Below are positions 10,259-62,725 of a stretch of DNA of 64,000 nt, one piece after another (the first letter of the stretch is position 1; each line of letters begins with the position of its first letter). The notes under the pieces were generated by a model. It saw nothing but the letters and a program-made list of their open reading frames with translations, was not told the origin of the DNA and did no database searches. The translations under genes and the position numbers were made by a program. The stretch is from Nymphaea colorata (taxonomy: Eukaryota > Streptophyta > Magnoliopsida > Nymphaeales > Nymphaeaceae), in assembly GCF_008831285.2 (NCBI RefSeq), contig NC_037468.1, forward strand, positions 477,001-541,000, in the 5' to 3' direction.

Positions 10259-10414
10259 TTTCAAAGTCAAGGTCAGCGTACATGTCATTCAAAGTTGCGA
10301 GTGTCAATCTGATTTGCTTTGCTCGTGACATTGGAAAGCCAAAGCGAAGCGAGTGTGCTTATGATTTGTGGAAACACTAATGGCATACAATTGCCATTGG
10401 GAGCACTAATGGCA
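10243..10414 (+). repeat. 172-bp array flank, copy 1
   Basis: This segment recurs at 37989-38160 in the same orientation and looks identical over 172 bp. It runs from the ACGTCACG border motif into the first bases of the array. Beyond position 10414 the two copies enter arrays of opposite orientation. Confidence 0.85.
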
Positions 10415-13400
10415 ATTGTATGCCTTCAAGAATTGCACAATTATGGAAGGACTCTCTTGAAAGGTCAGGACTCTGAAAGGTCAGGACTAATGAGAATGAT
10501 TGAGGAAAAGTCAGAACTCACCTTATCAAAAAGGTCAAGACTGTCTTTCACAGTCAGGACTAACCTGACCAAAAAGATCAAGACTGTCTTGAAAGATCAG
10601 AACTTCTTCTTCTTAAAAGGACAGGACCCTTTTGAAAGGTCAGGACTCATGACAATTGTATGCCATTAGTACTCACTTGACAAACAAATGCCATTAGTAC
10701 TCACTTGACAAACAAATGCCATTAGTGCTCACCATACCAACATGAGTACTCACCATACCAAAACAGGTGAGGACTCTGAAAGGTCAGGACTAATGAGAAT
10801 GATTGAGGAAAAGTCAGAACTCACCTGACCATACAAGACTCATTTGTATGTCATCAGTACTCACCTTATCAAAAAGGTCAAGACTGTCTTTCACAGTCAG
10901 GACTAACCTTACCAAAAAGATCAAGACTATCTGATCAGGACTGATTCTTCTGGTCAAGACTGTATTTCACAGTCAGGACTGACCTTACCAAAAAGGTCAA
11001 GACTGTCTTGAAAGGTCAGGACTGATTTTTCTTGAAAGGTCAAGACTGTCTTGAAATCAGTACTGACCTTATCAAAAAGGTCAAGACTGTCTTTCACAGT
11101 CAGGACTAACCTTACCAAAAAGATCAAGACTATCTGATCAGGACTGATTCTTCTGGTCAAGACTGTCTTTCACAGTCAGGACTAACCTTACCAAAAAGGT
11201 CAAGACTGTCTTGAAAGGTCAGGACTGATTCTTCTGGAAAGGTCAAGACTGTCTTGAAAGGTCAGGACTCATTCTTCTTGAAAGGTCAGGACTCATTATG
11301 GAAAAGTCAGGAAGGTGAGGACTCTTTTGAAAGGTCAGGACTCTGAAAGGTCAGGACTAATGAGAATGATTGAGGAAAAGTCAGATTCCATACAGGACTC
11401 TTTTGAAAGGTCAGGACTCCTTATGGAAGGACAGGACCCTTTTGAAAGGTCAGGACTCATGACAATTGTATGCCATTAGTACTCACTTGACAAACAAATG
11501 CCATTAGTACTCACTTGACAACAAAATGCCATTAGTACTCACTTGACAACAAATTGTATGTCTCTCACTTGACAAACAAATGCCATTAGTACTCACTTGA
11601 CAAACCAATGTCATTAGTACTCACTGTACAAACCAATGTCATTAGTACTCACCATACCAAAACAGGTCAGGACTTTCTGGAAAGGTCAAGACTCTGAAAG
11701 GTCAGGACTAATGAGAATGATTGAGGAATGACCATCAAGACTCATTTGTATGTCATCAGTACTCACCTTATCAAAAAGGTCAAGACTGTCTTTCAAAGTC
11801 AGGACTAACCTTACCAAAAAGATCAAGACTATCTGATCAGGACTGATTCTTCTGGTCAAGACTGTATTTCACAGTCAGGACTGACCTTACCAAAAAGATC
11901 AAGACTGTCTTGAAAGGTCAGGACTTTTGATGGAAGGACAGGACCAATTGCAATTGTATGCCATTAGTACTCACCTGACCAAAAATGGAAAGGTCAAGAC
12001 TGTCTTGAAAGGTCAGGACTCATTCTTCTTGAAAGGTCAGGACTGATTATGGAAGGACAGGACCAATTGCAATTGTATGCCATTAGTACTCACCTTATCA
12101 AAAAGGTCAAGACTGTCTTTCAAAGTCAGGACTGACCTTATCAAAAAGGTCAAGACTGTCTTTCAAAGTCAGGACTAACCTGACCAAAAAGGTCAAGACT
12201 GTCTTGAAAGGTCAGGACTGATTCTTCTTGAAAGGTCAAGACTGTCTTGAAAGGTCAGGACTGATTCTTCTGGAAAGGTCAAGACTATGAAAGGTCAGGA
12301 CTAATGAGAATGATTGAGGAATGACCATCAAGACTCATTTGTATGTCATCAGTACTCACCTTATCAAAAAGGTCAAGACTGTCTTTCACAGTCAGGACTA
12401 ACCTTACCAAAAAGATCAAGACTATCTGATCAGGACTGATTCTTCTGGTCAAGACTGTATTTCACAGTCAGGACTGACCTTACCAAAAAGGTCAAGACTG
12501 TCTTGAAAGGTCAGGACTGATTTTTCTTGAAAGGTCAAGACTGTCTTGAAATCAGTACTGACCTTTTTTGAAAGATCAAGACTATCTTGAAAGATCAGGA
12601 CTGATTCTTCTGGTCAAGACTGTCTTTCAAAGTCAGGACTAACCTTACCAAAAAGGTCAAGACTGTCTTGAAAGGTCAGGACTGATTCTTCTTGAAAGGT
12701 CAAGACTGTCTTGAAAGGTCAGGACTCATTCTTCTTGAAAGGTCAGGACTCTTTTGAAAGGTCAAGACTCATTTGTATGTCATCAGTACTCACCTTATCA
12801 AAAAGGTCAAGACTGTCTTTCAAAGTCAGGACTAACCTTACCAAAAAGATCAAGACTATCTGATCAGGACTGATTCTTCTGGTCAAGACTGTATTTCAAA
12901 GTCAGGACTGACCTTACCAAAAAGGTCAAGACTGTCTTGAAAGGTCAGGACTGATTTTTCTTGAAAGGTCAAGACTGTCTTGAAATCAGTACTGACCTTA
13001 TCAAAAAGGTCAAGACTGTCTTTCAAAGTCAGGACTAACCTTACCAAAAAGATCAAGACTATCTGATCAGGACTGATTCTTCTGGTCAATACTGTATTTC
13101 AAGGTCAGGACTGACCTTACCAAAAAGGTCAAGACTGTCTTGAAAGGTCAGGACTGATTCTTCTTGAAAGGTCAAGACTGTCTTGAAAGGTCAGGACTCA
13201 TTCTTCTTGAAAGGTCAGGACTCATTGCAATTCAATGCCATTAGTACTCACTTGACAAACAAATGCCATTAGTACTCACTTGACAAACAAATGCCATTAG
13301 TACTCACTTGACAAACAAATGCCATTAGTACTCACTTGACAAACAAATGCCATTAGTACTCACTGTACAAACAAATGCCATTAGTGCTCACCATACCAAC

Positions 13401-14905
13401 ATGAGTACTCACCCTACCAAAACAGGTGAGGACTCATTATGGACAGGACTACTTTCCGGTCAAGACTCTGAAAGGTCAGGACTAATGAGAATGATTGAGG
13501 AATGACCATCAAGACTCATTTGTATGTCATCAGTACTCACCTTATCAAAAAGGTCAAGACTGTCTTTCAAAGTCAGGACTAACCTTACCAAAAAGATCAA
13601 GACTATCTGATCAGGACTGATTCTTCTGGTCAAGACTGTCTTTCACAGTCAGGACTGACCTTATCAAAAAGGTCAAGACTGTCTTTCACAGTCAGGACTA
13701 ACCTTACCAAAAAGGTCAAGACTGTCTTGAAAGGTCAGGACTTTTGATGGAAGGACAGGACCAATTGCAATTGTATGCCATTAGTACTCACCTGACCAAA
13801 AATGGAAAGGTCAAGACTGTCTTGAAATCAGTACTGACCTTATCAAAAAGGTCAAGACTGTCTTTCAAAGTCAGGACTAACCTTACCAAAAAGATCAAGA
13901 CTATCTGATCAGGACTGATTCTTCTGGTCAATACTGTATTTCAAGGTCAGGACTGACCTTACCAAAAAGGTCAAGACTGTCTTGAAAGGTCAGGACTGAT
14001 TCTTCTGGAAAGGTCAAGACTGTCTTGAAAGGTCAGGACTCATTCTTCTTGAAAGGTCAGGACTGATTATGGAAGGACAGGACCAATTGCAATTGTATGC
14101 CATTAGTACTCACCTTATCAAAAAGGTCAAGACTGTCTTTCAAAGTCAGGACTGACCTTACCAAAAAGGTCAAGACTGTCTTGAAAGGTCAGGACTGATT
14201 CTTCTTGAAAGGTCAAGACTCTGAAAGGTCAGGACTAATGAGAATGATTGAGGAATGACCATCAAGACTCATTTGTATGTCATCAGTACTCACCATACCA
14301 AAACAGGTGAGGACTGTCTTGAAAGGTCAAGACTCTGAAAGGTCAGGACTAATGAGAATGATTGAGGAAAAGTCAGAACTCACCTTACCATACAAGACTC
14401 ATTTGTATGTCATCAGTACTCACCTTATCAAAAAGGTCAAGACTGTCTTTCAAAGTCAGGACTAACCTTACCAAAAAGATCAAGACTATCTGATCAGGAC
14501 TGATTCTTCTTGAAAGGTCAAGACTGTATTTCACAGTCAGGACTGACCTTATCAAAAAGGTCAAGACTGTCTTTCACAGTCAGGACTAACCTGACCAAAA
14601 AGGTCAAGACTGTCTTGAAAGGTCAGGACTTTTGATGGAAGGACAGGACCAATTGCAATTGTATGCCATTAGTACTCACCTGACCAAAAATGGAAAGGTT
14701 AAGACTGTCTTGAAAGGTCAGGACTGATTCTTCTTGAAAGATGAAGACTCATTGCAATTGTATGCCATTAGTACTCACTGTACAAACAAATGCCATTAGT
14801 ACTCACTATACCAACATGAGTACTCACCATACCAAAACAATGCCATTAGTGCTCCCAATGGCAATTGTATGCCATTTTCCATACAACAAATTGTATGCCA
14901 TTAGT
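10375..14905 (+). repeat. Array 1: complex short-repeat array, forward orientation
   Basis: About 4.5 kb consists almost wholly of variants of GGTCARGACT separated by 10-13 nt linkers such as GTCTTGAAA, GTCTTTCAAA, ACCTTACCAAAAA and GATTCTTCTGGAAA. Partner blocks are interspersed. One is a 28-bp unit beginning ATGCCATTAGTACTCACTTG, in tandem near 11465-11640 and 13230-13400. Another contains the 12-bp palindrome CAATTGCAATTG after GGACAGGACC. A third is AATGAGAATGATTGAGGAA. Blocks recur in partly fixed order, so there is higher-order structure of a few hundred bp. Open frames of 60-116 codons inside it only translate the repeat (peptides like 'SGLMRMIEEKSELTL') and are not genes. Confidence 0.95.
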
Positions 14906-15132
14906 GAAAAGAATGAAGATCAATGACAATTGTCCATCAATATGAGTTCCCTTCTTGTCTGATAGTCTATCAGAGTGAGTCTGAATCAGCCCTACGCTTT
15001 GCTCATGACTTTGTTCGCTTTGCGAGTGCTTTCTTAAGGGAACTCGTCAAGCGAAGCTCTGACGGAAATGGATAAATTTGAATTGATTGAAAGAAGGGAA
15101 CTCATCAATTTGCAATTGTCATGGATTTTGGA
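14906..15132. other. Hinge between oppositely oriented arrays 1 and 2
   Basis: This 0.2-kb non-array spacer separates array 1 (forward) from array 2 (reverse). It contains the border words CCCTACGCTTTGCTCATGAC and CTTTGCGAGTGCTTTC, the latter near 15018-15033. Sequences on either side (GACAATTG versus CAATTGTC, and the 'ATACAATTTGTTGTAT' block) are inverted relative to each other. The hinge is therefore the loop of a multi-kilobase imperfect palindrome. Confidence 0.75.
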
Positions 15133-18100
15133 AGGCATACAATTTGTTGTATGGAAAATGGCATCTTTTTGGTATAGTGAGTACTCATGTTGGTATGGTG
15201 AGCACTAATGGCATTTGTTTGTACAGTGAGTACTAATGGCATTTGTTTGTACAGTGAGTACTAATGGCATTTGTTTGTACAGTGAGTACTAATGGCATAC
15301 AATTGCAATGAGTCTTCATCTTTCAAGAAGAATCAGTCCTGACCTTTCAAGACAGTCTTAACCTTTCCATTTTTGGTCAGGTGAGTACTAATGGCATACA
15401 ATTGCAATTGGTCCTGTCCTTCCATCAAAAGTCCTGACCTTTCAAGACAGTCTTGACCTTTTTGGTCAGGTTAGTCCTGACTGTGAAAGACAGTCTTGAC
15501 CTTTTTGATAAGGTCAGTCCTGACTGTGAAATACAGTCTTGACCTTTCAAGAAGAATCAGTCCTGATCAGATAGTCTTGATCTTTTTGGTAAGGTTAGTC
15601 CTGACTTTGAAAGACAGTCTTGACCTTTTTGATAAGGTGAGTACTGATGACATACAAATGAGTCTTGATGGTCATTCCTCAATCATTCTCATTAGTCCTG
15701 ACCTTTCATAGTCTTGACCTTTCCAGAAGAATCAGTCCTGACCTTTCAAGACAGTCTTGACCTTTTTGGTAAGGTCAGTCCTGACTTTGAAAGACAGTCT
15801 TGACCTTTTTGATAAGGTGAGTACTAATGGCATACAATTGCAATTGGTCCTGTCCTTCCATAATCAGTCCTGACCTTTCAAGAAGAATGAGTCCTGACCT
15901 TTCAAGACAGTCTTGACCTTTCCAGAAGAATCAGTCCTGACCTTTCAAGACAGTCTTGACCTTTTTGGTAAGGTCAGTCCTGACCTTGAAATACAGTATT
16001 GACCAGAAGAATCAGTCCTGATCTTTCAAGATAGTCTTGATCTTTTTGGTAAGGTTAGTCCTGACTTTGAAAGACAGTATTGACCTTTTTGATAAGGTCA
16101 GTACTGATTTCAAGACAGTCTTGACCTTTCCATTTTTGGTCAGGTGAGTACTAATGGCATACAATTGCAATTGGTCCTGTCCTTCCATCAAAAGTCCTGA
16201 CCTTTCAAGACAGTCTTGACCTTTTTGGTAAGGTCAGTCCTGACTGTGAAATACAGTATTGACCAGAAGAATCAGTCCTGATCAGATAGTCTTGATCTTT
16301 TTGGTAAGGTTAGTCCTGACTTTGAAATACAGTATTGACCTTTTTGATAAGGTGAGTACTGATGACATACAAATGAGTCTTGATGGTCATTCCTCAATCA
16401 TTCTCATTAGTCCTGACCTTTCAGAGTCTTGACCGGAAAGTAGTCCTGTCCATAATGAGTCCTCACCTGTTTTGGTATGGTGAGTACTCATGTTGGTATG
16501 GTGAGCACTAATGGCATTTGTTTGTACAGTGAGTACTAATGGCATTTGTTTGTCAAGTGAGTACTAATGGCATTTGTTTGTCAAGTGAGTACTAATGGCA
16601 TTTGTTTGTCAAGTGAGTACTAATGGCATTTGTTTGTCAAGTGAGTACTAATGGCATTGAATTGCAATGAGTCCTGACCTTTCAAGAAGAATGAGTCCTG
16701 ACCTTTCAAGACAGTCTTGACCTTTCAAGAAGAATCAGTCCTGACCTTTCAAGACAGTCTTGACCTTTTTGGTAAGGTCAGTCCTGACCTTGAAATACAG
16801 TCTTGACCAGAAGAATCAGTCCTGATCTTTCAAGATAGTCTTGATCTTTTTGGTAAGGTTAGTCCTGACTTTGAAATACAGTATTGACCTTTTTGATAAG
16901 GTCAGTACTGATTTCAAGACAGTCTTGACCTTTCAAGAAAAATCAGTCCTGACCTTTCAAGACAGTCTTGACCTTTTTGGTAAGGTCAGTCCTGACTGTG
17001 AAAGACAGTCTTGACCAGAAGAATCAGTCCTGATCAGATAGTCTTGATCTTTTTGGTAAGGTTAGTCCTGACTTTGAAAGACAGTCTTGACCTTTTTGAT
17101 AAGGTGAGTACTGATGACATACAAATGAGTCTTGACCTTTCAAATGAGTCCTGACCTTTCAAGAAGAATGAGTCATGACCTTTCAAGACAGTCTTGACCT
17201 TTCAAGAAGAATCAGTCCTGACCTTTCAAGACAGTCTTGACCTTTTTGGTAAGGTTAGTCCTGACTTTGAAATACAGTCTTGACCAGAAGAATCAGTCCT
17301 GATCAGATAGTCTTGATCTTTCAAAAAAGGTCAGTACTGATTTCAAGACAGTCTTGACCTTTCCATTTTTGGTCAGGTGAGTACTAATGGCATACAATTG
17401 CAATTGGTCCTGTCCTTCCATCAAAAGTCCTGACCTTTCAAGACAGTCTTGACCTTTTTGGTAAGGTCAGTCCTGACTGTGAAATACAGTCTTGACCAGA
17501 AGAATCAGTCCTGATCAGATAGTCTTGATCTTTTTGGTAAGGTTAGTCCTGACTTTGAAAGACAGTCTTGACCTTTTTGATAAGGTGAGTACTGATGACA
17601 TACAAATGAGTCTTGATGGTCATTCCTCAATCATTCTCATTAGTCCTGACCTTTCAGAGTCTTGACCTTTCAAGAAGAATCAGTCCTGACCTTTCAAGAC
17701 AGTCTTGACCTTTTTGGTAAGGTCAGTCCTGACTGTGAAATACAGTCTTGACCTTTTTGATAAGGTGAGTACTAATGGCATACAATTGCAATTGGTCCTG
17801 TCCTTCCATAATCAGTCCTGACCTTTCAAGAAGAAGGAGTCCTGACCTTTCAAGACAGTCTTGACCTTTCCATTTTTGGTCAGGTGAGTACTAATGGCAT
17901 ACAATTGCAATTGGTCCTGTCCTTCCATCAAAAGTCCTGACCTTTCAAGACAGTCTTGATCTTTTTGGTAAGGTCAGTCCTGACTGTGAAATACAGTCTT
18001 GACCAGAAGAATCAGTCCTGATCAGATAGTCTTGATCTTTTTGGTAAGGTTAGTCCTGACTTTGAAAGACAGTCTTGACCTTTTTGATAAGGTGAGTACT

Positions 18101-21100
18101 GATGACATACAAATGAGTCTTGACCTTTCAAGACAGTCCTCACCTTCCTGACTTTTCCATAATGAGTCCTGACCTGTTTGGTATGGTGAGTACTGATGAC
18201 ATACAAATGAGTCTTGATGGTCATTCCTCAATCATTCTCATTAGTCCTGACCTTTCAGAGTCTTGACCTTTCCAGAAGAATCAGTCCTGACCTTTCAAGA
18301 CAGTATTGACCTTTCAAAAAAGGTCAGTCCTGACTGTGAAAGACAGTATTGACCTTTTTGATAAGGTGAGTACTAATGGCATACAATTGCAATTGGTCCT
18401 GTCCTTCCATAATCAGTCCTGACCTTTCCAGAAGAATGAGTCCTGACCTTTCAAGACAGTCTTGACCTTTCCAGAAGAATCAGTCCTGACCTTTCAAGAC
18501 AGTCTTGACCTTTTTGGTAAGGTCAGTCCTGACCTTGAAATACAGTATTGACCAGAAGAATCAGTCCTGATCTTTCAAGATAGTCTTGATCTTTTTGGTA
18601 AGGTTAGTCCTGACTTTGAAAGACAGTCTTGACCTTTTTGATAAGGTCAGTACTGATTTCAAGACAGTCTTGACCTTTCAAGAAAAATCAGTCCTGACCT
18701 TTCAAGACAGTCTTGACCTTTTTGGTAAGGTCAGTCCTGACTTTGAAATACAGTCTTGACCAGAAGAATCAGTCCTGATCAGATAGTCTTGATCTTTTTG
18801 GTAAGGTTAGTCCTGACTTTGAAATACAGTCTTGACCTTTTTGATAAGGTGAGTACTGATGACATACAAATGAGTCTTGACCTTTCAAAACAGTCTTCAT
18901 CTTTTTGGTATGGTGAGTACTGATGACATACAAATGAGTCTTGACCTTTTTGGATCCTGACCTGTTTGGTATGGTGAGTACTGATGACATACAAATGAGT
19001 CTTGACCTTTCAAGACAGTCCTGACCTGTTTTGGTATGGTGAGTACTAATGACATTGGTTTGTACAGTGAGTACTAATGACATTTGTTTGTCAAGTGAGT
19101 ACTAATGGCATTTTGTTGTCAAGTGAGAGACATACAATTTGTTGTCAAGTGAGTACTAATGGCATACAATTGCAATGAGTCCTGACCTTTCAAAAGAGTC
19201 CTGTATGGTCATTCCTCAATCATTCTCATTAGTCCTGACCTTTCAGAGTCCTGACCTTTCAAAAGAGTCCTCACCTTTCAAGAAGAATGAGTCCTGACCT
19301 TTCAAGACAGTCTTGACCTTTCAAGAAGAATCAGTCCTGACCTTTCAAGACAGTCTTGACCTTTTTGGTAAGGTTAGTCCTGACTGTGAAATACAGTCTT
19401 GACCAGAAGAATCAGTCCTGATCAGATAGTCTTGATCTTTTTGGTAAGGTTAGTCCTGACTTTGAAATACAGTCTTGACCTTTTTGATAAGGTCAGTACT
19501 GATTTCAAGACAGTCTTGACCTTTCAAGAAAAATCAGTCCTGACCTTTCAAGACAGTCTTGACCTTTTTGGTAAGGTCAGTCCTGACTGTGAAAGACAGT
19601 CTTGACCAGAAGAATCAGTCCTGATCAGATAGTCTTGATCTTTTTGGTAAGGTTAGTCCTGACTGTGAAAGACAGTCTTGACCTTTTTGATAAGGTGAGT
19701 ACTGATGACATACAAATGAGTCTTGACCTTCCTGACCTTTCCAGAGAGTCCTGACCTTTTTGGTAAGGTGAGTTCTGACTTTTCCTCAATCATTCTCATT
19801 AGTCCTGACCTTTCAGAGTCCTGACCTTTCCATCTTTTTGGTATGGTGAGTACTAATGACATTGGTTTGTACAGTGAGTACTAATGGCATATGGAAAGTA
19901 CTAATGGCATTTGTTTGCACAGTGAGTACTAATGGCATATGGAAAGTACTAATGGCATTTTGTTGTCAAGTGAGAGACATACAATTTGTTGTCAAGTGAG
20001 TACTAATGGCATACAATTGCAATGAGTCCTGACCTTTCAAGAAGAATGAGTCCTGACCTTTCAAGACAGTCTTGACCTTTCAAAAGAGTCCTGACCTTCC
20101 TGACTTTTCCATAATGAGTCCTGACCTTTCCAGAAGAATCAGTCCTGACCTTTCAAGACAGTCTTGACCTTTTTGGTAAGGTCAGTCCTGACTGTGAAAT
20201 ACAGTCTTGACCAGAAGAATCAGTCCTGATCAGATAGTCTTGATCTTTTTGGTAAGGTTAGTCCTGACTTTGAAAGACAGTCTTGACCTTTTTGATAAGG
20301 TGAGTACTGATGACATACAAATGAGTCTTGACCTTCCTGACTTTTCCATAATGAGTCCTGACCTTTCCAGAAGAATCAGTCCTGACCTTTCAAGACAGTC
20401 TTGACCTTTCCAGAAGAATCAGTCCTGACCTTTCAAGACAGTCTTGACCTTTTTGGTAAGGTCAGTCCTGACCTTGAAATACAGTCTTGACCAGAAGAAT
20501 CAGTCCTGATCAGATAGTCTTGATCTTTTTGGTAAGGTTAGTCCTGACTTTGAAAGACAGTCTTGACCTTTTTGATAAGGTCAGTACTGATTTCAAGACA
20601 GTCTTGACCTTTCCATTTTTGGTCAGGTGAGTACTAATGGCATACAATTGCAATTGGTCCTGTCCTTCCATCAAAAGTCCTGACCTTTCAAGACAGTCTT
20701 GACCTTTTTGGTAAGGTCAGTCCTGACTGTGAAATACAGTCTTGACCAGAAGAATCAGTCCTGATCAGATAGTCTTGATCTTTTTGGTAAGGTTAGTCCT
20801 GACTGTGAAAGACAGTCTTGACCTTTTTGATAAGGTGAGTACTGATGACATACAAATGAGTCTTGATGGTCATTCCTCAATCATTCTCATTAGTCCTGAC
20901 CTTTCAGAGTCTTGACCTTTCCAGAAGAATCAGTCCTGACCTTTCAAGACAGTCTTGACCTTTCCATTTTTGGTCAGGTGAGTACTAATGGCATACAATT
21001 GCAATTGGTCCTGTCCTTCCATCAAAAGTCCTGACCTTTCAAGACAGTCTTGACCTTTTTGGTCAGGTTAGTCCTGACTGTGAAAGACAGTCTTGACCTT

Positions 21101-21222
21101 TTTGATAAGGTCAGTCCTGACTTTGAAAGACAGTCTTGACCTTTTTGATAAGGTGAGTACTAATGGCATACAATTGCAATTGGTCCTGTCCTTCCATAAT
21201 CAGTCCTGACCTTTCCATAACA
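15133..21222 (-). repeat. Array 2: complex short-repeat array, reverse orientation
   Basis: About 6.1 kb of the same module family as array 1 but reverse-complemented (AGTCYTGACC reads on the plus strand). The left edge opens with a CATCAATTTGCAATTGTCAT leader followed by GGCATACAATTTGTTGTAT, as in arrays 3 and 5. The right edge ends at the terminus shared with array 3. The 28-bp partner block is reiterated near 16500-16660. It holds no credible coding sequence. Confidence 0.95.
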
Positions 21223-21540: not shown

Positions 21541-21626
21541 CCTCGGAGCTCTTTTCGCCGAGCATTTCACCCTCTTGACTTCGCTACGCTCAGCGGCTCG
21601 CCAATAGTTAAAATTTCTTCTTTGTT

Positions 21627-24432: not shown

Positions 24433-24484
24433 CCACTAGTGAGTGATAGGGCGAAAAGAGGGGGGAAGGACAAAGGAAAGAGCG

Positions 24485-25770: not shown

Positions 25771-25970
25771 CAGCGTACATGACTTTGCTTTGCATTTCAT
25801 CAAAGTGGCTCATGAATCCAAAGCGAAGCATTCAAAGCTTTTGGTTGGAACATCAATTTGCAATTGTCATGGATTTTTGAAGGCATACAATTTGTTGTAT
25901 GGAAAATGGCATCTTTTTGGTATAGTGAGTACTCATGTTGGTATGGTGAGCACTAATGGCATTTGTTTGT
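25771..25970 (+). repeat. 200-bp array leader, copy 1
   Basis: This looks identical by eye to 50028-50227. It contains the non-array leader and the first modules of array 3. Array 2 shares the inner part of the same leader from about 15105. Confidence 0.85.
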
Positions 25971-28900
25971 CAAGTGAGTACTAATGGCATTTGTTTGTAC
26001 AGTGAGTACTAATGGCATACAATTGCAATGAGTCTTCATCTTTCAAGAAGAATCAGTCCTGACCTTTCAAGACAGTCTTAACCTTTCCATTTTTGGTCAG
26101 GTGAGTACTAATGGCATACAATTGCAATTGGTCCTGTCCTTCCATCAAAAGTCCTGACCTTTCAAGACAGTCTTGACCTTTTTGGTAAGGTTAGTCCTGA
26201 CTGTGAAAGACAGTCTTGACCTTTTTGATAAGGTCAGTCCTGACTGTGAAATACAGTCTTGACCAGAAGAATCAGTCCTGATCAGATAGTCTTGATCTTT
26301 TTGGTAAGGTCAGTCCTGACTTTGAAAGACAGTCTTGACCTTTCAAGAAGAATCAGTCCTGATCAGATAGTCTTGATCTTTTTGGTAAGGTCAGTCCTGA
26401 CTTTGAAAGACAGTCTTGACCAGAAGAATCAGTCCTGATCAGATAGTCTTGATCTTTTTGGTAAGGTTAGTCCTGACTGTGAAAGACAGTCTTGACCTTT
26501 TTGATAAGGTGAGTACTGATGACATACAAATGAGTCTTGATGGTCATTCCTCAATCATTCTCATTAGTCCTGACCTTTCATAGTCTTGACCTTTCAAGAA
26601 GAATCAGTCCTGACCTTTCAAGACAGTCTTGACCTTTCCATTTTTGGTCAGGTGAGTACTAATGGCATACAATTGCAATTGGTCCTGTCCTTCCATCAAA
26701 AGTCCTGACCTTTCAAGACAGTCTTGACCTTTTTGGTCAGGTTAGTCCTGACTTTGAAAGACAGTCTTGACCTTTTTGATAAGGTCAGTCCTGACTGTGA
26801 AATACAGTCTTGACCTTTTTGATAAGGTGAGTACTAATGGCATACAATTGCAATTGGTCCTGTCCTTCCATAATCAGTCCTGACCTTTCAAGAAGAATGA
26901 GTCCTGACCTTTCAAGACAGTCTTGACCTTTCCATTTTTGGTCAGGTGAGTACTAATGGCATACAATTGCAATTGGTCCTGTCCTTCCATCAAAAGTCCT
27001 GACCTTTCAAGACAGTCTTGATCTTTTTGGTAAGGTCAGTCCTGACTGTGAAAGACAGTCTTGACCAGAAGAATCAGTCCTGATCAGATAGTCTTGATCT
27101 TTTTGGTAAGGTCAGTCCTGACTTTGAAAGACAGTCTTGACCTTTTTGATAAGGTGAGTACTGATGACATACAAATGAGTCTTGTATGGTCAGGTGAGTA
27201 CTAATGGCATACAATTGCAATTGGTCCTGTCCTTCCATAATCAGTCCTGACCTTTCAAGACAGTCTTGACCAGAAGAATCAGTCCTGACCTTTCAAGACA
27301 GTCTTGACCTTTTTGGTAAGGTCAGTCCTGACCTTGAAATACAGTCTTGACCAGAAGAATCAGTCCTGATCAGATAGTCTTGATCTTTTTGGTAAGGTTA
27401 GTCCTGACTGTGAAAGACAGTCTTGACCTTTTTGATAAGGTCAGTACTGATTTCAAGACAGTCTTGACCTTTCCATTTTTGGTCAGGTGAGTACTAATGG
27501 CATACAATTGCAATTGGTCCTGTCCTTCCATCAAAAGTCCTGACCTTTCAAGACAGTCTTGACCTTTTTGGTAAGGTCAGTCCTGACTGTGAAATACAGT
27601 CTTGACCAGAAGAATCAGTCCTGATCAGATAGTCTTGATCTTTTTGGTAAGGTCAGTCCTGACTTTGAAAGACAGTCTTGACCTTTTTGATAAGGTGAGT
27701 ACTGATGACATACAAATGAGTCTTGTATGGTAAGGTGAGTTCTGACTTTTCCTCACGAATTCTCATTAGTCCTGACCTTTCAGAGTCTTGACCGGAAAGT
27801 AGTCCTGTCCATAATGAGTCCTCACCTGTTTTGGTATGGTGAGTACTCATGTTGGTATGGTGAGCACTAATGGCATTTGTTTGTACAGTGAGTACTAATG
27901 GCATTTGTTTGTCAAGTGAGTACTAATGGCATTTGTTTGTCAAGTGAGTACTAATGGCATTTGTTTGTCAAGTGAGTACTAATGGCATTTGTTTGTCAAG
28001 TGAGTACTAATGGCATTGAATTGCAATGAGTCCTGACCTTTCTAAAATTATAATGAGTCCTGACCTGTTTGGTATGGTGAGTACTGATGACATACAAATG
28101 AGTCTTGTATGGTAAGGTGAGTCCTGACCTGTTTGGTATGGTGAGTACTGATGACATACAAATGAGTCTTGACCGGAAAGTCCTGACCTTTCAAGAAGAA
28201 TGAGTCCTGACCTTTCAAGACAGTCTTGACCTTTCAAGAAGAATCAGTCCTGACCTTTCAAGACAGTCTTGACCTTTTTGGTAAGGTCAGTCCTGACCTT
28301 GAAATACAGTCTTGACCAGAAGAATCAGTCCTGATCAGATAGTCTTGATCTTTTTGGTAAGGTTAGTCCTGACTTTGAAAGACAGTCTTGACCTTTTTGA
28401 TAAGGTCAGTACTGATTTCAAGACAGTCTTGACCTTTCCATTTTTGGTCAGGTGAGTACTAATGGCATACAATTGCAATTGGTCCTGTCCTTCCATCAAA
28501 AGTCCTGACCTTTCAAGACAGTCTTGACCTTTTTGGTAAGGTCAGTCCTGACTGTGAAAGACAGTCTTGACCAGAAGAATCAGTCCTGATCAGATAGTCT
28601 TGATCTTTTTGGTAAGGTTAGTCCTGACTTTGAAAGACAGTCTTGACCTTTTTGATAAGGTGAGTACTGATGACATACAAATGAGTCTTGACCTTTCAAA
28701 ACAGTCTTCATCTTTTTGGTATGGTGAGTACTGATGACATACAAATGAGTCTTGATGGTCATTCCTCAATCATTCTCATTAGTCCTGACCTTTCAGAGTC
28801 TTGACCTTTCCAGACAGTCCTGACCTGTTTTGGTATGGTGAGTACTAATGACATTGGTTTGTACAGTGAGTACTAATGACATTGGTTTGTCAAGTGAGTA

Positions 28901-30885
28901 CTAATGGCATTTGTTTGTCAAGTGAGAGACATACAATTTGTTGTCAAGTGAGTACTAATGGCATTTTGTTGTCAAGTGAGTACTAATGGCATTTGTTTGT
29001 CAAGTGAGTACTAATGGCATACAATTGTCATGAGTCCTGACCTTTCAAAAGGGTCCTGTCCTTTTAAGAAGAAGAAGTTCTGATCTTTCAAGACAGTCTT
29101 GATCTTTTTGGTAAGGTTAGTCCTGACTGTGAAAGACAGTCTTGACCTTTTTGATAAGGTGAGTTCTGACTTTTCCTCAATCATTCTCATTAGTCCTGAC
29201 CTTTCAGAGTCCTGACCTTTCAAAAGAGTCCTGTATGGAATCTGACTTTTCCTCAATCATTCTCATTAGTCCTGACCTTTCAGAGTCCTGACCTTTCAAA
29301 AGAGTCCTCACCTTTTTGGTATGGTGAGTACTGATGACATACAAATGAGTCTTGACCTTCCTGACCTTTCCATAATGAGTCCTGACCTTTCCATCTTTTT
29401 GGTATGGTGAGTACTAATGACATTGGTTTGTACAGTGAGTACTAATGGCATATGGAAAGTACTAATGGCATTTGTTTGCACAGTGAGTACTAATGGCATA
29501 TGGAAAGTACTAATGGCATTTTGTTGTCAAGTGAGAGACATACAATTTGTTGTCAAGTGAGTACTAATGGCATTTGTTTGTCAAGTGAGTACTAATGGCA
29601 TTGAATTGCAATTGGTCCTGTCCTTCCAGAATTAGTCCTGACCTTTCAAAAGAGTCCTGACCTTTCAAGAAGAATGAGTCCTGACCTTTCAAGACAGTCT
29701 TGACCTTTCAAAAGAGTCCTGACCTTCCTGACTTTTCCATAATGAGTCCTGACCTTTCAAGAAGAATCAGTCCTGACCTTTCAAGACAGTCTTGACCTTT
29801 TTGGTAAGGTCAGTCCTGACTGTGAAATACAGTCTTGACCAGAAGAATCAGTCCTGATCAGATAGTCTTGATCTTTTTGGTAAGGTTAGTCCTGACTTTG
29901 AAAGACAGTCTTGACCTTTTTGATAAGGTGAGTACTGATGACATACAAATGAGTCTTGACCTTTCAATCAAGTCCTCACCTTCCTGACTTTTCCATAATG
30001 AGTCCTGACCTTTCAAGAAGAATGAGTCCTGACCTTTCAAGACAGTCTTGACCTTTCAAGAAGAATCAGTCCTGACCTTTCAAGACAGTCTTGACCTTTT
30101 TGGTAAGGTCAGTCCTGACCTTGAAAGACAGTCTTGACCAGAAGAATCAGTCCTGATCAGATAGTCTTGATCTTTTTGGTAAGGTTAGTCCTGACTTTGA
30201 AAGACAGTCTTGACCTTTTTGATAAGGTCAGTACTGATTTCAAGACAGTCTTGACCTTTCCATTTTTGGTCAGGTGAGTACTAATGGCATACAATTGCAA
30301 TTGGTCCTGTCCTTCCATCAAAAGTCCTGACCTTTCAAGACAGTCTTGACCTTTTTGGTAAGGTCAGTCCTGACTGTGAAAGACAGTCTTGACCAGAAGA
30401 ATCAGTCCTGATCAGATAGTCTTGATCTTTTTGGTCAGGTTAGTCCTGACTTTGAAAGACAGTCTTGACCTTTTTGATAAGGTGAGTACTGATGACATAC
30501 AAATGAGTCTTGTATGGTCAGGTGAGTTCTGACTTTTATTCAATCATTCTCATTAGTCCTGACCTTTCAGAGTCTTGACCTTTCAAGAAGAATCAGTCCT
30601 GACCTTTCAAGACAGTCTTGACCTTTCCATTTTTGGTCAGGTGAGTACTAATGGCATACAATTGCAATTGGTCCTGTCCTTCCATCAAAAGTCCTGACCT
30701 TTCAAGACAGTCTTGACCTTTTTGGTAAGGTTAGTCCTGACTGTGAAAGACAGTCTTGACCTTTTTGATAAGGTCAGTCCTGACTTTGAAAGACAGTCTT
30801 GACCTTTTTGATAAGGTGAGTACTAATGGCATACAATTGCAATTGGTCCTGTCCTTCCATAATCAGTCCTGACCTTTCCATAACA
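25882..30885 (-). repeat. Array 3: complex short-repeat array, reverse orientation
   Basis: About 5 kb of the same modules, in the same orientation as array 2. Long segments repeat the block order of arrays 2 and 5, including the GGTCCTGTCC-CAATTGCAATTG block and the GTGAGTACTGATGACATAC block. The 28-bp partner unit is tandem near 27880-28020. The right end is the terminus shared with array 2. No gene is contained. Confidence 0.95.
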
Positions 30886-37988: not shown

Positions 37989-38160
37989 TCACGTCACGAG
38001 CCAATTTCAAAGTCAAGGTCAGCGTACATGTCATTCAAAGTTGCGAGTGTCAATCTGATTTGCTTTGCTCGTGACATTGGAAAGCCAAAGCGAAGCGAGT
38101 GTGCTTATGATTTGTGGAAACACTAATGGCATACAATTGCCATTGGGAGCACTAATGGCA
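37989..38160 (+). repeat. 172-bp array flank, copy 2
   Basis: Same sequence and orientation as 10243-10414, but it leads into an array of opposite orientation. Confidence 0.85.
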
Positions 38161-39735
38161 TTTGTTTGTACAGTGAGTACTAATGGCATTTGTTTGTACA
38201 GTGAGTACTAATGGCATACAATTGCAATTAGTCTTCATCTTTCAAGAAGAATCAGTCCTGACCTTTCAAGACAGTCTTAACCTTTCCATTTTTGGTCAGG
38301 TGAGTACTAATGGCATACAATTGCAATTGGTCCTGTCCTTCCATCAAAAGTCCTGACCTTTCAAGACAGTCTTGACCTTTTTGGTAAGGTTAGTCCTGAC
38401 TGTGAAAGACAGTCTTGACCTTTTTGATAAGGTCAGTCCTGACTGTGAAATACAGTCTTGACCAGAAGAATCAGTCCTGATCAGATAGTCTTGATCTTTT
38501 TGGTAAGGTTAGTCCTGACTTTGAAAGACAGTCTTGACCTTTTTGATAAGGTGAGTACTGATGACATACAAATGAGTCTTGATGGTCATTCCTCAATCAT
38601 TCTCATTAGTCCTGACCTTTCAGAGTCTTGACCTTTCCAGAAGAATCAGTCCTGACCTTTCAAGACAGTCTTGACCTTTCCAGAAGAATCAGTCCTGACC
38701 TTTCAAGACAGTCTTGACCTTTTTGGTCAGGTTAGTCCTGACTGTGAAAGACAGTCTTGACCTTTTTGATAAGGTCAGTCCTGACTGTGAAAGACAGTCT
38801 TGACCTTTTTGATAAGGTGAGTACTAATGGCATACAATTGCAATTGGTCCTGTCCTTCCATAATCAGTCCTGACCTTTCAAGAAGAATGAGTCCTGACCT
38901 TTCAAGACAGTCTTGACCTTTCCAGAAGAATCAGTCCTGACCTTTCAAGACAGTCTTGATCTTTTTGGTAAGGTCAGTCCTGACTGTGAAATACAGTCTT
39001 GACCAGAAGAATCAGTCCTGATCAGATAGTCTTGATCTTTTTGGTAAGGTTAGTCCTGACTGTGAAAGACAGTCTTGACCTTTTTGATAAGGTGAGTACT
39101 GATGACATACAAATGAGTCTTGTATGGTCAGGTGAGTACTAATGGCATACAATTGCAATTGGTCCTGTCCTTCCATAATCAGTCCTGACCTTTCAAGACA
39201 GTCTTGACCAGAAGAATCAGTCCTGACCTTTCAAGACAGTCTTGACCTTTTTGGTAAGGTCAGTCCTGACCTTGAAATACAGTCTTGACCAGAAGAATCA
39301 GTCCTGATCAGATAGTCTTGATCTTTTTGGTAAGGTTAGTCCTGACTGTGAAATACAGTCTTGACCTTTTTGATAAGGTCAGTACTGATTTCAAGACAGT
39401 CTTGACCTTTCCATTTTTGGTCAGGTGAGTACTAATGGCATACAATTGCAATTGGTCCTGTCCTTCCATCAAAAGTCCTGACCTTTCAAGACAGTCTTGA
39501 CCTTTTTGGTAAGGTCAGTCCTGACTGTGAAATACAGTCTTGACCAGAAGAATCAGTCCTGATCAGATAGTCTTGATCTTTTTGGTAAGGTTAGTCCTGA
39601 CTGTGAAAGACAGTCTTGACCTTTTTGATAAGGTGAGTACTAATGACATACAAATGAGTCTTGACCTTCCTGACTTTTCCATAATGAGTCCTGACCTTTC
39701 AATCAAGTCCTGACTTTTCCATAACCTTTCCATAA
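38120..39735 (-). repeat. Array 4: complex short-repeat array, reverse orientation
   Basis: About 1.6 kb of the same modules, a shortened version of the block order in arrays 2, 3 and 5. There is no gene inside. Confidence 0.93.
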
Positions 39736-50027: not shown

Positions 50028-50227
50028 CAGCGTACATGACTTTGCTTTGCATTTCATCAAAGTGGCTCATGAATCCAAAGCGAAGCATTCAAAGCTTTTG
50101 GTTGGAACATCAATTTGCAATTGTCATGGATTTTTGAAGGCATACAATTTGTTGTATGGAAAATGGCATCTTTTTGGTATAGTGAGTACTCATGTTGGTA
50201 TGGTGAGCACTAATGGCATTTGTTTGT
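50028..50227 (+). repeat. 200-bp array leader, copy 2
   Basis: Looks identical to 25771-25970, leading into array 5. Confidence 0.85.
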
Positions 50228-52885
50228 ACAGTGAGTACTAATGGCATTTGTTTGTCAAGTGAGTACTAATGGCATTTGTTTGTACAGTGAGTACTAATGG
50301 CATACAATTGCAATGAGTCTTCATCTTTCAAGAAGAATCAGTCCTGACCTTTCAAGACAGTCTTAACCTTTCCATTTTTGGTCAGGTGAGTACTAATGGC
50401 ATACAATTGCAATTGGTCCTGTCCTTCCATCAAAAGTCCTGACCTTTCAAGACAGTCTTGACCTTTTTGGTAAGGTTAGTCCTGACTGTGAAAGACAGTC
50501 TTGACCTTTTTGATAAGGTCAGTCCTGACTGTGAAATACAGTCTTGACCAGAAGAATCAGTCCTGATCAGATAGTCTTGATCTTTTTGGTAAGGTCAGTC
50601 CTGACTGTGAAAGACAGTCTTGACCTTTTTGATAAGGTGAGTACTGATGACATACAAATGAGTCTTGATGGTCATTCCTCAATCATTCTCATTAGTCCTG
50701 ACCTTTCAGAGTCTTGACCTTTCCAGAAGAATCAGTCCTGACCTTTCAAGACAGTCTTGACCTTTCCATTTTTGGTCAGGTGAGTACTAATGGCATACAA
50801 TTGCAATTGGTCCTGTCCTTCCATCAAAAGTCCTGACCTTTCAAGACAGTCTTGACCTTTTTGGTCAGGTTAGTCCTGACTTTGAAAGACAGTCTTGACC
50901 TTTTTGATAAGGTCAGTCCTGACTTTGAAAGACAGTCTTGACCTTTTTGATAAGGTGAGTACTAATGGCATACAATTGCAATTGGTCCTGTCCTTCCATA
51001 ATCAGTCCTGACCTTTCCAGAAGAATGAGTCCTGACCTTTCAAGACAGTCTTGACCTTTCCATTTTTGGTCAGGTGAGTACTAATGGCATACAATTGCAA
51101 TTGGTCCTGTCCTTCCATCAAAAGTCCTGACCTTTCAAGACAGTCTTGATCTTTTTGGTAAGGTCAGTCCTGACTGTGAAATACAGTCTTGACCAGAAGA
51201 ATCAGTCCTGATCAGATAGTCTTGATCTTTTTGGTAAGGTCAGTCCTGACTTTGAAAGACAGTCTTGACCTTTTTGATAAGGTGAGTACTGATGACATAC
51301 AAATGAGTCTTGTATGGTCAGGTGAGTACTAATGGCATACAATTGCAATTGGTCCTGTCCTTCCATAATCAGTCCTGACCTTTCAAGACAGTCTTGACCT
51401 TTCAAGAAGAATCAGTCCTGACCTTTCAAGACAGTCTTGACCTTTTTGGTCAGGTTAGTCCTGACTTTGAAAGACAGTCTTGACCTTTTTGATAAGGTCA
51501 GTCCTGACTTTGAAAGACAGTCTTGACCTTTTTGATAAGGTGAGTACTGATGACATACAAATGAGTCTTGACCTTTCAAAACAGTCTTCATCTGTTTGGT
51601 ATGGTGAGTACTGATGACATACAAATGAGTCTTGATGGTCATTCCTCAATCATTCTCATTAGTCCTGACCTTTCATAGTCTTGACCTTTCCAGAAGAATC
51701 AGTCCTGACCTTTCAAGACAGTCTTGACCTTTCCAGAAGAATCAGTCCTGACCTTTCAAGACAGTCTTGACCTTTTTGGTAAGGTTAGTCCTGACTGTGA
51801 AAGACAGTCTTGACCTTTTTGATAAGGTCAGTCCTGACTGTGAAAGACAGTCTTGACCTTTTTGATAAGGTGAGTACTAATGGCATACAATTGCAATTGG
51901 TCCTGTCCTTCCATAATCAGTCCTGACCTTTCAAGAAGAATGAGTCCTGACCTTTCAAGACAGTCTTGACCTTTCCATTTTTGGTCAGGTGAGTACTAAT
52001 GGCATACAATTGCAATTGGTCCTGTCCTTCCATCAAAAGTCCTGACCTTTCAAGACAGTCTTGATCTTTTTGGTAAGGTCAGTCCTGACTGTGAAATACA
52101 GTCTTGACCAGAAGAATCAGTCCTGATCAGATAGTCTTGATCTTTTTGGTAAGGTCAGTCCTGACTTTGAAAGACAGTCTTGACCTTTTTGATAAGGTGA
52201 GTACTGATGACATACAAATGAGTCTTGTATGGTCAGGTGAGTACTAATGGCATACAATTGCAATTGGTCCTGTCCTTCCATAATCAGTCCTGACCTTTCA
52301 AGACAGTCTTGACCAGAAGAATCAGTCCTGACCTTTCAAGACAGTCTTGACCTTTTTGGTCAGGTCAGTCCTGACTGTGAAATACAGTATTGACCAGAAG
52401 AATCAGTCCTGATCAGATAGTCTTGATCTTTCAAAAAAGGTGAGTACTCATTGTTGATGGAAAATGGCATTTGTTTGTCAAGTGAGTACTAATGGCATTT
52501 TGTTGTCAAGTGAGTACTAATGGCATTTTGTTGTCAAGTGAGTACTAATGGCATTTGTTTGTCAAGTGAGTACTAATGGCATACAATTGTCATGAGTCCT
52601 GACCTTTCAAAAGGGTCCTGTCCTTTTAAGAAGAAGAAGTTCTGATCTTTCAAGACAGTCTTGATCTTTTTGGTCAGGTTAGTCCTGACTTTGAAAGACA
52701 GTCTTGACCTTTTTGATAAGGTGAGTTCTGACTTTTCCTCAATCATTCTCATTAGTCCTGACCTTTCAGAGTCCTGACCTTTCAAAAGGGTCCTGTCCTT
52801 CCATAATCATTCCTCAATCATTCTCATTAGTCCTGACCTTTCCAGAGAGTCCTGACCTTTCCATAATGAGTCCTGACCTGGTCAG
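50139..52885 (-). repeat. Array 5: complex short-repeat array, reverse orientation
   Basis: About 2.7 kb with the same leader and block order as array 3. It ends in a hinge next to oppositely oriented array 6. Confidence 0.94.
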
Positions 52886-53032
52886 ACAAATCGTTCAAAG
52901 TGCTGACCAAAAGTTGAATGGAATGATCTTCACAAAATGATATTGACTCTTTTGTCAGGGTCAGCGGCATACAATTCAATTTGTGATATGGTCAGCACTT
53001 GTCAGGATTTGTCTGACCTGAATCAGTGACCT
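52886..53032. other. Hinge between oppositely oriented arrays 5 and 6
   Basis: The hinge is imperfectly palindromic. 'GGTCAGACAAATC' and 'AGTGCTGACCA' on the left face 'TGGTCAGCACTTGTCAGG' and 'TTTGTCTGACCTG' on the right, so the two arrays form the arms of a long imperfect inverted repeat. Confidence 0.75.
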
Positions 53033-55045
53033 TATGGAAAGGTCAGGACTCATTTCTTGAAAGGTGAGGACTTTATGGAAAGGTCAAGACTCATTTGTAT
53101 GTCATCAGTACTCACCTTATCAAAAAGGTCAAGACTGTCTTTCAAAGTCAGGACTAACCTTACCAAAAAGATCAAGACTATCTGATCAGGACTGATTCTT
53201 CTGGTCAAGACTGTATTTCACAGTCAGGACTGACCTTACCAAAAAGGTCAAGACTGTCTTGAAAGGTCAGGACTGATTTTTCTGGTCAAGACTGTCTTGA
53301 AATCAGTACTGACCTTTTTTGAAAGATCAAGACTATCTTGAAAGATCAGGACTGATTCTTCTGGTCAATACTGTATTTCAAGGTCAGGACTGACCTTACC
53401 AAAAAGGTCAAGACTGTCTTGAAAGGTCAGGACTGATTCTTCTGGAAAGGTCAAGACTGTCTTGAAAGGTCAGGACTCATTCTTCTGGAAAGGTCAGGAC
53501 TGATTATGGAAGGACAGGACCAATTGCAATTGTATGCCATTAGTACTCACCTTATCAAAAAGGTCAAGACTGTCTTTCACAGTCAGGACTGACCTTATCA
53601 AAAAGGTCAAGACTGTCTTTCACAGTCAGGACTAACCTTACCAAAAAGGTCAAGACTGTCTTGAAAGGTCAGGACTGATTCTTCTGGAAAGGTCAAGACT
53701 GTCTTGAAAGGTCAGGACTGATTCTTCTGGAAAGGTCAAGACTATGAAAGGTCAGGACTAATGAGAATGATTGAGGAATGACCATCAAGACTCATTTGTA
53801 TGTCATCAGTACTCACCTTATCAAAAAGGTCAAGACTGTCTTTCAAAGTCAGGACTAACCTTACCAAAAAGATCAAGACTATCTGATCAGGACTGATTCT
53901 TCTGGTCAATACTGTATTTCACAGTCAGGACTGACCTTATCAAAAAGGTCAAGACTGTCTTTCAAAGTCAGGACTAACCTGACCAAAAAGGTCAAGACTG
54001 TCTTGAAAGGTCAGGACTTTTGATGGAAGGACAGGACCAATTGCAATTGTATGCCATTAGTACTCACCTGACCAAAAATGGAAAGGTCAAGACTGTCTTG
54101 AAAGGTCAGGACTGATTCTTCTGGAAAGGTCAGGACTCATTATGGAAAAGTCAGGAAGGTGAGGACTTGATTGAAAGGTCAAGACTATGAAAGGTCAGGA
54201 CTAATGAGAATGATTGAGGAATGACCATCAAGACTCATTTGTATGTCATCAGTACTCACCTTATCAAAAAGGTCAAGACTGTCTTTCAAAGTCAGGACTA
54301 ACCTTACCAAAAAGATCAAGACTATCTGATCAGGACTGATTCTTCTGGAAAGGTCAAGACTGTATTTCACAGTCAGGACTGACCTTACCAAAAAGGTCAA
54401 GACTGTCTTGAAAGGTCAGGACTGATTTTTCTTGAAAGGTCAAGACTGTCTTGAAATCAGTACTGACCTTATCAAAAAGGTCAAGACTGTCTTTCACAGT
54501 CAGGACTAACCTTACCAAAAAGATCAAGACTATCTGATCAGGACTGATTCTTCTGGTCAAGACTGTCTTTCAAGGTCAGGACTGACCTTACCAAAAAGGT
54601 CAAGACTGTCTTGAAAGGTCAGGACTGATTCTTCTTGAAAGGTCAAGACTGTCTTGAAAGGTCAGGACTGATTCTTCTTGAAAGGTCAGGACTCATTATG
54701 GAAAAGTCAGGAAGGTCAGGACTCTTTTGAAAGGTCAAGACTGTCTTGAAAGGTCAGGACTCATTCTTCTTGAAAGGTCAGGACTCATTGCAATTGTATG
54801 CCATTAGTACTCACTTGACAACAAATTGTATGTCTCTCACTTGACAAACAAATGCCATTAGTACTTTCCATATGCCATTAGTACTCACTGTGCAAACAAA
54901 TGCCATTAGTACTTTCCATATGCCATTAGTACTCACTGTACAAACAAATGTCATGAGTGCTGACCATACCAAAATCCATCCAAATTGGTTGATGGATAAT
55001 GGCATCTCCTTTTTTTGATGGATAATGGCATACAATGACAATTGA
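53033..55045 (+). repeat. Array 6: complex short-repeat array, forward orientation
   Basis: About 2 kb in the orientation of array 1 and with much of its block order. The right end passes into AACCATCAAACCTTGATG (about 55055-55072), a variant of the right end of array 7. A border word (GAAGCTTCGCTTTGCGAGTG) follows at about 55098-55117. Confidence 0.94.
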
Positions 55046-58225: not shown

Positions 58226-58387
58226 AATGTCATATGAACCCCTGTCATTTGCTTCAAAAGTGAGGTCTTCTTATGGATGGTAGTGTTTTTTGTTTCTGCT
58301 GGCGATGCTCTCTGAGGATTGGCAGTCCCCCTCCTTCAGGTCTCCAAGCCTAGTGAATCTCGGCACGATTGGGTAGCCTATTATGTC

Positions 58388-58451
58388 CTTTTCTCTTTGA
58401 TTTCATGGTGTAATTTGTCTGATTGGTGTCTGTGTTCCTTTGTTAGTGTCA
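58388..58451 (+). repeat. About 62-bp direct repeat, copy 2
   Basis: Second copy of 57131-57194; one T shorter in the first T-run. Confidence 0.85.
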
Positions 58452-62088: not shown

Positions 62089-62089
62089 C

Positions 62090-62195
62090 AAAGCCCAAAA
62101 AGCACTCGCAACTTTGAATGCTGAAAGAAGGGAAAAGGTACATAGTGAATCTCATTTTGTCTGAATCAGCCCTACGCTTTGCGAGTGCTTTCTGA
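62090..62195. repeat. Border repeat cluster at left edge of array 7
   Basis: GCAAAGCCCAAAAAGCACTC and CCCTACGCTTTGCGAGTGCT flank this small array on the left. Confidence 0.78.
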
Positions 62196-62227
62196 AAGAA
62201 GGGATCAAGGTTTGACGGATTGATGGA

Positions 62228-62725
62228 AAGGAAATGATGGAAAGGTCAGGACTAATGAGAATGATTGAGGAATGATTATGGAAGGACAGGACCCTTTTGA
62301 AAGGTCAGGACTCTGAAAGGTCAGGACTAATGAGAATGATTGAGGAAAAGTCAGAACTCACCTTATCAAAAAGGTCAAGACTGTCTTTCAAAGTCAGGAC
62401 TAACCTGACCAAAAAGATCAAGACTGTCTTGAAAGATCAGAACTTCTTCTTCTTAAAAGGACAGGACCCTTTTGAAAGGTCAGGACTCATGACAATTGTA
62501 TGCCATTAGTACTCACTTGACAAACAAATGCCATTAGTACTCACTTGACAACAAAATGCCATTAGTACTCACTTGACAACAAAATGCCATTAGTACTCAC
62601 TTGACAAACAAATGCCATTTTCCATCAACAATGAGTACTCACTATACCAAAAAGATGCCATTTTCCATACCAAGAAAGATGCCATTAGTGCTGACCATAC
62701 AACCAATTGTATGCCATTAGTGTTT
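62228..62725 (+). repeat. Array 7: short array, forward orientation
   Basis: About 0.5 kb with the same block order as the start of array 1 (10450-10740), then the 28-bp partner units. It is the smallest complete-looking member, with border words on both sides. Confidence 0.93.

Follow-up and report, generated by a model that had tools for sequence, protein, structure and literature searches.

A probable layered noncoding satellite in the mitochondrial genome of Nymphaea colorata, with a younger hairpin-rich layer absent from the older nuclear copies examined

The short noncoding repeats described in the organelle genomes of Volvox carteri, sponge, yeast and Lobosphaera are mostly dispersed single hairpins. 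According to the parts of the corresponding reports available to us (PMC2670323, PMC2800124, PMC4478555, PMC4524435), the repeats of Volvox, sponge and Lobosphaera are palindromic or hairpin-forming, and those of Volvox, sponge and yeast have been called selfish, invading or mobile. Among seed-plant mitochondrial genomes (mitogenomes), those of Cycas and Ginkgo carry Bpu-like elements, a short noncoding family of high copy number whose unit of 36 bases has AAGG as its direct ends and a site for Bpu10I (PMC8297867, in part), while the accessible sections of PMC6385970 present double-strand-break repair and break-induced replication as a source of plant mitochondrial repeats. The mitogenome of Nymphaea colorata has 617,195 bases, 49% of which are repeats; of its 290 repeat families, 252 were detected in Nymphaea alone, and its introns are swollen by repeats (PMC6092842, sections available). 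Here we analyze a window of this mitogenome, that is, the 64,000-base stretch between positions 477001 and 541000 of the mitogenome contig C782 (617,195 bases in an assembly of 407.8 Mb), in which seven large arrays are built from very short modules. As in the organelle repeats cited above these modules are short and noncoding, but here the hairpins are themselves the units from which long, ordered tandem arrays are made.

The arrays probably represent a layered noncoding mitochondrial satellite, in which a young, hairpin-rich layer would be invading old arrays by means of break repair and template switching. Their architecture was determined in 304 kb of the mitogenome (C782:200001-400000 and 477001-581000, 49% of the contig), from which 7,502 masked bases were excluded, and an array was called where four or more cores were present. 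This portion contains 51 arrays with 115,836 bases and 4,712 cores, in both orientations and ranging from 0.24 to 6.5 kb; the longest measures 6,510 bases between its first and last core, and one (388180-389996) extends into masked bases. Each unit consists of an 8-base core (such as TCAAGACT, TCAGGACT, TCAGTACT or TTAGTACT) and a spacer. Splitting the arrays at the core yielded 4,661 units with just 249 distinct sequences in 116 clusters; the 20 commonest sequences account for 65% of the units, and 114 of the 248 N-free sequences are singletons, one N-containing unit having been dropped from the singleton and entropy analyses. Unit order is strict (conditional entropy of 1.58 bits versus 4.68 in shuffles), and the arrays share a polarity that runs from head units through core blocks to TTAGTACTCACT tail units and one of several end sequences. 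A 23-base core pattern, allowing at most one mismatch, has 912 matches in the 304 kb and 1,707 genome-wide; among the matches listed for contigs up to C781, in both mismatch classes, 16 are nuclear. Scaled by these counts, the whole mitogenome would hold approximately 215 kb of arrays.

Two layers can be distinguished. The old layer comprises arrays with J, X and G units (TCAAGACTCATTTGTATGTCA, TCAGGACTCATTGCAATTCAATGCCA and TTAGTACTCACTTGACAAACAAATGCCA), present both in the mitochondrion and in nuclear copies of mitochondrial DNA, hereafter fossils. The young layer comprises dimers of 24 and 19 bases grown into higher-order blocks, and is absent from the older nuclear copies examined. Core-class units, 3,015 out of 4,712 (64%), occur in 49 of the 51 arrays and form the majority in 39, two short arrays of 5 and 9 units having none. 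When arrays of at least 40 units are divided into tenths, the share of core-class units is 56% at the start, 63-74% across the eight middle tenths and 40% at the end. Old units account for 33% of that final tenth and for 7-16% of the others; the opening tenth is richer in units classified as other, not in old ones. Layered expansion is known from alpha satellites. The enrichment of old units in the last tenth, at one of the two array edges, recalls in part centromere satellites, where young higher-order repeats amplify inside older arrays (PMC10910784, in part), with the difference that the present arrays belong to an organelle genome, have no centromere role, and are dozens of short dispersed arrays that have changed together.

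Nuclear copies supply a relative time axis for these layers. Of the 268 exact matches of a 35-base tail pattern, 10 fall in nuclear contigs C1, C4 and C9; the reversed control has none. The C1 copy aligns to mitochondrial positions 222511-219005 (98.7%) and 218319-217482 (94.1%), on both sides of the mitochondrial array 218186-219182, the second piece taking in the first bases of that array. Outside the array the nuclear and mitochondrial sequences differ at 30 of 3,129 bases (0.96%), and 17 of these differences are C>T or G>A in the direction from mitochondrion to nucleus, as expected of a nuclear copy. The C1 array, with 21 cores, is shorter than its mitochondrial counterpart; it retains two unusual units of the latter, has no core-class unit, and lacks approximately 480 bases of core blocks which in the mitochondrion stand between TCAGTACTCACC and the unit TCAGGACTMATTATAATTATAGAAAGG. 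A 16-base unit, TCAGTACTCACCAAGG, is found twice in C1 and is absent from the 304 kb of mitogenome examined. Taken together, the 119 units of the C1 and C4 fossils include 64 old, 55 other and no core units. Exact patterns of units D, B, C, A, H, F/E, I and K/N, which have 163, 380, 257, 489, 199, 452, 114 and 152 matches, respectively, in the 304 kb, have no match in C1, C4 or C9, whereas C, A, F/E and K/N are matched in a copy in nuclear contig C8. This core-bearing copy is the least diverged of the four dated copies (4 of 856 bases), compared with 0.96% for coreless C1, 2.3% for C4 (from one piece) and 2.4% for C9; these are relative divergences, not years. The younger layer is absent from the older array copies examined, few of which are dated, and the recent expansion and spread proposed in the original prediction, made from the letters of the window, finds support in these nuclear copies.

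The same distinction is seen on a wider scale. The old J unit has 506 matches genome-wide with at most one mismatch, and exact matches alone, counted among the matches listed, number at least 53 in the nucleus, in at least 21 loci. A core match lies within 500 bases of all 231 mitochondrial J matches of the 304 kb versus 2 of the 53 nuclear ones listed, and extending the distance to 1 kb brings the latter to 3 of 53, the mitochondrial count being 231 of 231. The A-unit pattern has 1,027 matches; the nuclear ones, among the matches listed without those at two mismatches, are located in C1, C2, C7, C8 and C229, some of them far from listed J units. A 5-kb region of C8 (11793001-11798000) consists of scrambled short mitochondrial fragments, with 19 best-tiling pieces from distant places. 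Beside the mitochondrial array 218186-219182 lies a 137-residue open frame (L010:7466-7879, +) that has no Pfam match and that by eye resembles a LINE endonuclease.

The young layer has also gained palindromes. The density of perfect stems of at least 6 bp with loops of at most 8 bases is 22.9 per kb for arrays of the mitochondrion, against 5.0 for those of the fossils and 3.6 for sequence outside arrays. DNA folding of 120-base windows gave z values of -2.40 for core (n=40), -0.66 for tail (n=22), -0.69 for fossil (n=37) and -0.18 for non-array sequence (n=40); P values (4.5e-6 for core against fossil) are rough, since windows overlap in descent. The excess seen in core windows is not shared by tail units. 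Eight single windows agree in part: the z values were -3.31 (first 147 bases of the young core example of Table 1) and -3.24 for core, 0.11 for tail (147 bases of the tail-unit example), 0.28, -0.07 and -0.34 for non-array, and -0.66 and -2.49 for fossil sequence. A possible ancestor of the core is a 43-base unit, Y, with one exact match in the C4 fossil (two at two mismatches) and 10 in the 304 kb. Unit Y has the same 24+19 layout as the core dimers, and 5 of its 43 bases differ from D+A and likewise from C+A; the longest perfect stem that it forms has 3 bp, or 4 where a J unit follows, versus 7 to 8 bp in the core dimers. Judging from these sequences, the core would descend from unit Y. Imperfect palindromes are known sites of mutation by template switching, according to the literature consulted in part.

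The units are uniform in sequence, with patchy exchange between them that outpaces substitution. Only 25 singletons are one substitution away from a unit of at least 10 copies, in 115,402 bases. Unit B has three variable sites in its 19 bases, and all 12 possible combinations occur, the rarest in 2 and 3 copies. Short-patch copying between units would best fit both the combinations of unit B and the scarcity of substitutions. Local spread of variants along an array whatever the unit type was rejected, a tail being shared in 98 of 364 cases of neighbouring B units of different type when shuffles average 123. Arrays are also frequently paired in inverted orientation: among neighbours less than 500 bases apart, 13 of 19 pairs lie on opposite strands (8 left-left and 5 right-right), the remaining 6 sharing a strand; the junction sequences of 12 of the 13 inverted pairs were inspected. 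Two nuclear loci, C14:6702928-6704402 and C4:7528126-7531211, carry 10 and 11 exact J units, respectively, on both strands. As these are inverted arrays of the old layer, inverted pairing may predate the core or may have arisen in the nucleus.

A mechanism compatible with these observations can be proposed. A few substitutions would have turned an old 43-base unit into a hairpin-forming dimer, whose hairpins may cause stalled forks or breaks. Repair, whether through break-induced replication, through gene conversion or through short template switches, would then copy blocks between arrays through their common cores; the same repair could amplify core blocks, keep their sequences uniform and sometimes switch strand, generating inverted pairs of arrays. 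No host function would be needed for such molecular drive in an organelle, the outcome of which would resemble layered centromere satellites. We advance only tentatively the further reading that this is a self-driving organelle satellite, in which hairpin-provoked break repair swept a hairpin-forming derivative of the old 43-base unit through nearly all arrays after the time marked by the approximately 1% divergence of one nuclear copy, overwriting an older satellite, and that nuclear insertions of mitochondrial DNA keep the state before the sweep.

Several points weigh against this interpretation. Both flanks are present in C1 only, the date of C4 comes from a single 483-base piece, and both C8 and C9 are pieced together from short fragments, those of C8 being possibly of different ages; moreover, C8 has no exact D, B, H or I match. 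C1, C4 and C9 were found via a tail-unit pattern, which biases the sample toward tail-bearing copies, and core-like nuclear matches away from exact J units exist in C1 (10.82 and 17.73 Mb), C4 (2.26 Mb), C2, C7 and C8 (5.72 Mb). Loose token matching called some C4 units D, D', C' and A', which by sequence are other units. The folding windows for the core were selected for having core motifs and no tail motifs, one of the two single fossil windows folds well, and hairpins enter as the driver of spread by our own reasoning. The analysis covers about half of the mitogenome. Finally, published recombination is low, with 74 recombined reads from ten repeat pairs in the available sections of PMC6092842; this counts against frequent crossover and is compatible with conversion without crossover.

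Tandem units can be lost in the nucleus through unequal exchange. Nuclear copies could accordingly have once possessed core blocks and lost them there, in which case the mitochondrial arrays would not be young, and the shorter array of C1 speaks in favour of it. We regard this as unlikely, given that the loss would have had to hit core units and spare the 64 old ones of C1 and C4, that 18 of the 21 nuclear J loci listed have no core within 5 kb (3 do), and that the one dated copy bearing core units, in C8, is also the least diverged. That the arrays are a non-autonomous transposable element, cut or copied whole by enzymes supplied elsewhere, would account for their common polarity, for their recurrent tail ends and for the perfect 35-base inverted repeat that encloses array 7 (Table 1). 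We consider it very unlikely: the arrays terminate in several types of end, the C1 comparison places the change inside an existing array and not at its ends, and pairing the flanks of 32 array complexes in the 304 kb returned joined hits that are scattered tail-like pieces, among which we judged none to be a clean empty site. Given the several types of end and the outcome of the flank pairing, the discrete composite element suggested by the original prediction is not supported, and its statement that arrays have the same ends stands insofar as tail ends recur and fails insofar as several alternatives exist with no single fixed terminus.

A selected function, by which the hairpin-rich core would have spread because it is useful in replication, packaging or RNA processing, would suit a hairpin content far above background and a strict unit order; array lengths from 0.24 to 6.5 kb and the use of both orientations speak against it, as does the absence of any known RNA family from the window's arrays in an Rfam search of the whole window at gathering scores, which reported only a tRNA and a group II intron, both outside arrays. 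On sequence evidence of this kind, we hold such a function to be highly improbable. Collapsed or misjoined reads might finally have produced wrong array lengths or copies, an artefact also named in the original prediction, and the longest array (6,510 bases) indeed approaches the mean read length of 7,294 bases given in the accessible text of PMC6092842. The same text reports a PacBio depth of 601x and a single circle of 617,195 bases; the arrays differ from each other in unit order and flanks, and related arrays are present in nuclear contigs, so that we find an assembly artefact very improbable.

Within the window, all seven predicted arrays were recovered (Table 1). They sum to 22,499 bases, or 35.2% of the window, close to the predicted 35%, and an independent k-mer segmentation gave 36.8%. 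Each is strand-uniform, in agreement with the differing orientations announced: the core motif T[CT]A[GA][GAT]ACT occurs 888 times on the dominant strands versus 16 times on the opposite ones, with a background of 15, both strands together, in 38,950 bases. Tandem periods of 43, 76, 119, 203 and 434 bases reflect a head-to-tail, higher-order organization, and unit strings as well as conditional entropy bear out the common modules, order rules and polarity. Only 1 of 95 stop-to-stop open reading frames (ORFs) of at least 90 residues lies wholly within an array (18769-19101, -), which agrees with the predicted lack of a credible gene, this ORF not having been searched further. A plant mitochondrial origin and a single modular noncoding family of varied lengths and orientations were correctly anticipated; the family of seven is real in all its members and is a slice of the 51 arrays found in the 304 kb. 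The tail unit TTAGTACTCACTTGACAAACAAATGCCA exemplified in Table 1 is also found in the C1, C4 and C9 fossils.

Table 1. Arrays, junctions and representative repeats of the window (window positions; TRF, Tandem Repeats Finder).
Feature	Position	Strand	Description
Array 1	10375..14905	+	4.5 kb; head units, core higher-order blocks, TTAGTACT tails
Young core layer, example	10854..11259	+	two 203-base higher-order copies, 97% alike; TRF period 203
Old-layer tail units, example	13234..13391	+	28-base TTAGTACTCACTTGACAAACAAATGCCA; TRF period 28, 97% matches
Spacer, array 1 (+) / array 2 (-)	14906..15132		right-right inverted junction, right ends facing
Array 2	15133..21222	-	6.1 kb; longest of the window
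Array 3	25882..30885	-	5.0 kb
Array 4	38120..39735	-	1.6 kb
Array 5	50139..52885	-	2.7 kb
Spacer, array 5 (-) / array 6 (+)	52886..53032		left-left inverted junction, left ends facing
Array 6	53033..55045	+	2.0 kb
Left arm of inverted repeat around array 7	62181..62215	+	35 bases; exact reverse complement of 62756-62790
Array 7	62228..62725	+	0.5 kb; short form, one core block (DBCA) and tail units
Right arm of inverted repeat around array 7	62756..62790	-	35 bases

Part of the left arm next to array 7, GCGAGTGCTTTCTGAAAGAAGGGA, is similar to a dispersed mitogenome family. A second dispersed family, which is richer in GC and forms hairpins (GAGCAAAGCCC...GGGCTTTGCTC; AAAGCACTCGCAAAGCG), often adjoins arrays and occurs throughout the mitogenome, for instance at 10201-10374 and 62181-62215 of the window; one of its 14-mers has 50 copies outside arrays in the 304 kb. 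Genes of the window include complex I chain-5 domains at 32565-33800, which we read as nad5, rps12 at 24443-24865, a tRNA-Trp and the end of a group II intron. The ORF at 46330-46809 (-) encodes a zf-RVT domain (E 4.5e-18) and is a nuclear-type retroelement fragment within mitochondrial DNA, and that at 63384-63836 (-) has weak matches to Integrase_H2C2 (E 1.2e-5) and, under its cut-off, Mitovir_RNA_pol (E 1.1e-4). Array 1 has no megablast match in phage records. A 21-base core pattern was found in no viral contig and, among bacterial and archaeal contigs, in one Clostridia contig, a match that we take as chance.

The arrays resemble Bpu-like elements as a short noncoding family of high copy number in a seed-plant mitogenome, but membership can be rejected: in the 304 kb the best match has 12 of 36 mismatches for the Cycas form and 10 for the Ginkgo form, none having 9 or fewer, and 20 shuffles of the Cycas form gave a best of 12 and a mean of 13.75. 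The break-repair processes described in PMC6385970 offer a parallel as a source of repeats and expansions, although the repeats catalogued in its available sections are non-tandem. A repeat already catalogued was the other refuting outcome named in the original prediction, and half of it applies, given that the repeat content and families of this mitogenome were published in 2018 (PMC6092842) in a main text from which the term "tandem repeat" is absent. In its available sections, that study treats repeats as pairwise BLAST repeats tested for recombination, with no tandem modules, layers or nuclear copies. A literature search of titles and abstract starts found no paper on the module structure, layering or nuclear copies of this family. 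The repetitiveness of the genome is thus already published, while the architecture and the time axis appear undescribed in the literature searched. According to a 2024 paper on Brasenia, available in part, Euryale ferox has approximately 370 kb and N. colorata approximately 617 kb, and this gap would fit growth in a single lineage.

It is an open question why repeats enlarge some plant mitogenomes in which substitution is slow. The coreless nuclear array and the present mitochondrial array offer a before and after at one locus, and make hairpin-driven repeat growth through break repair testable. If exchange occurs mostly as short patches and not as crossovers, the layered satellite may also be relevant to the published finding that abundant repeats coexist with few recombined reads. 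More generally, nuclear insertions are usable as a fossil record of organelle repeats.

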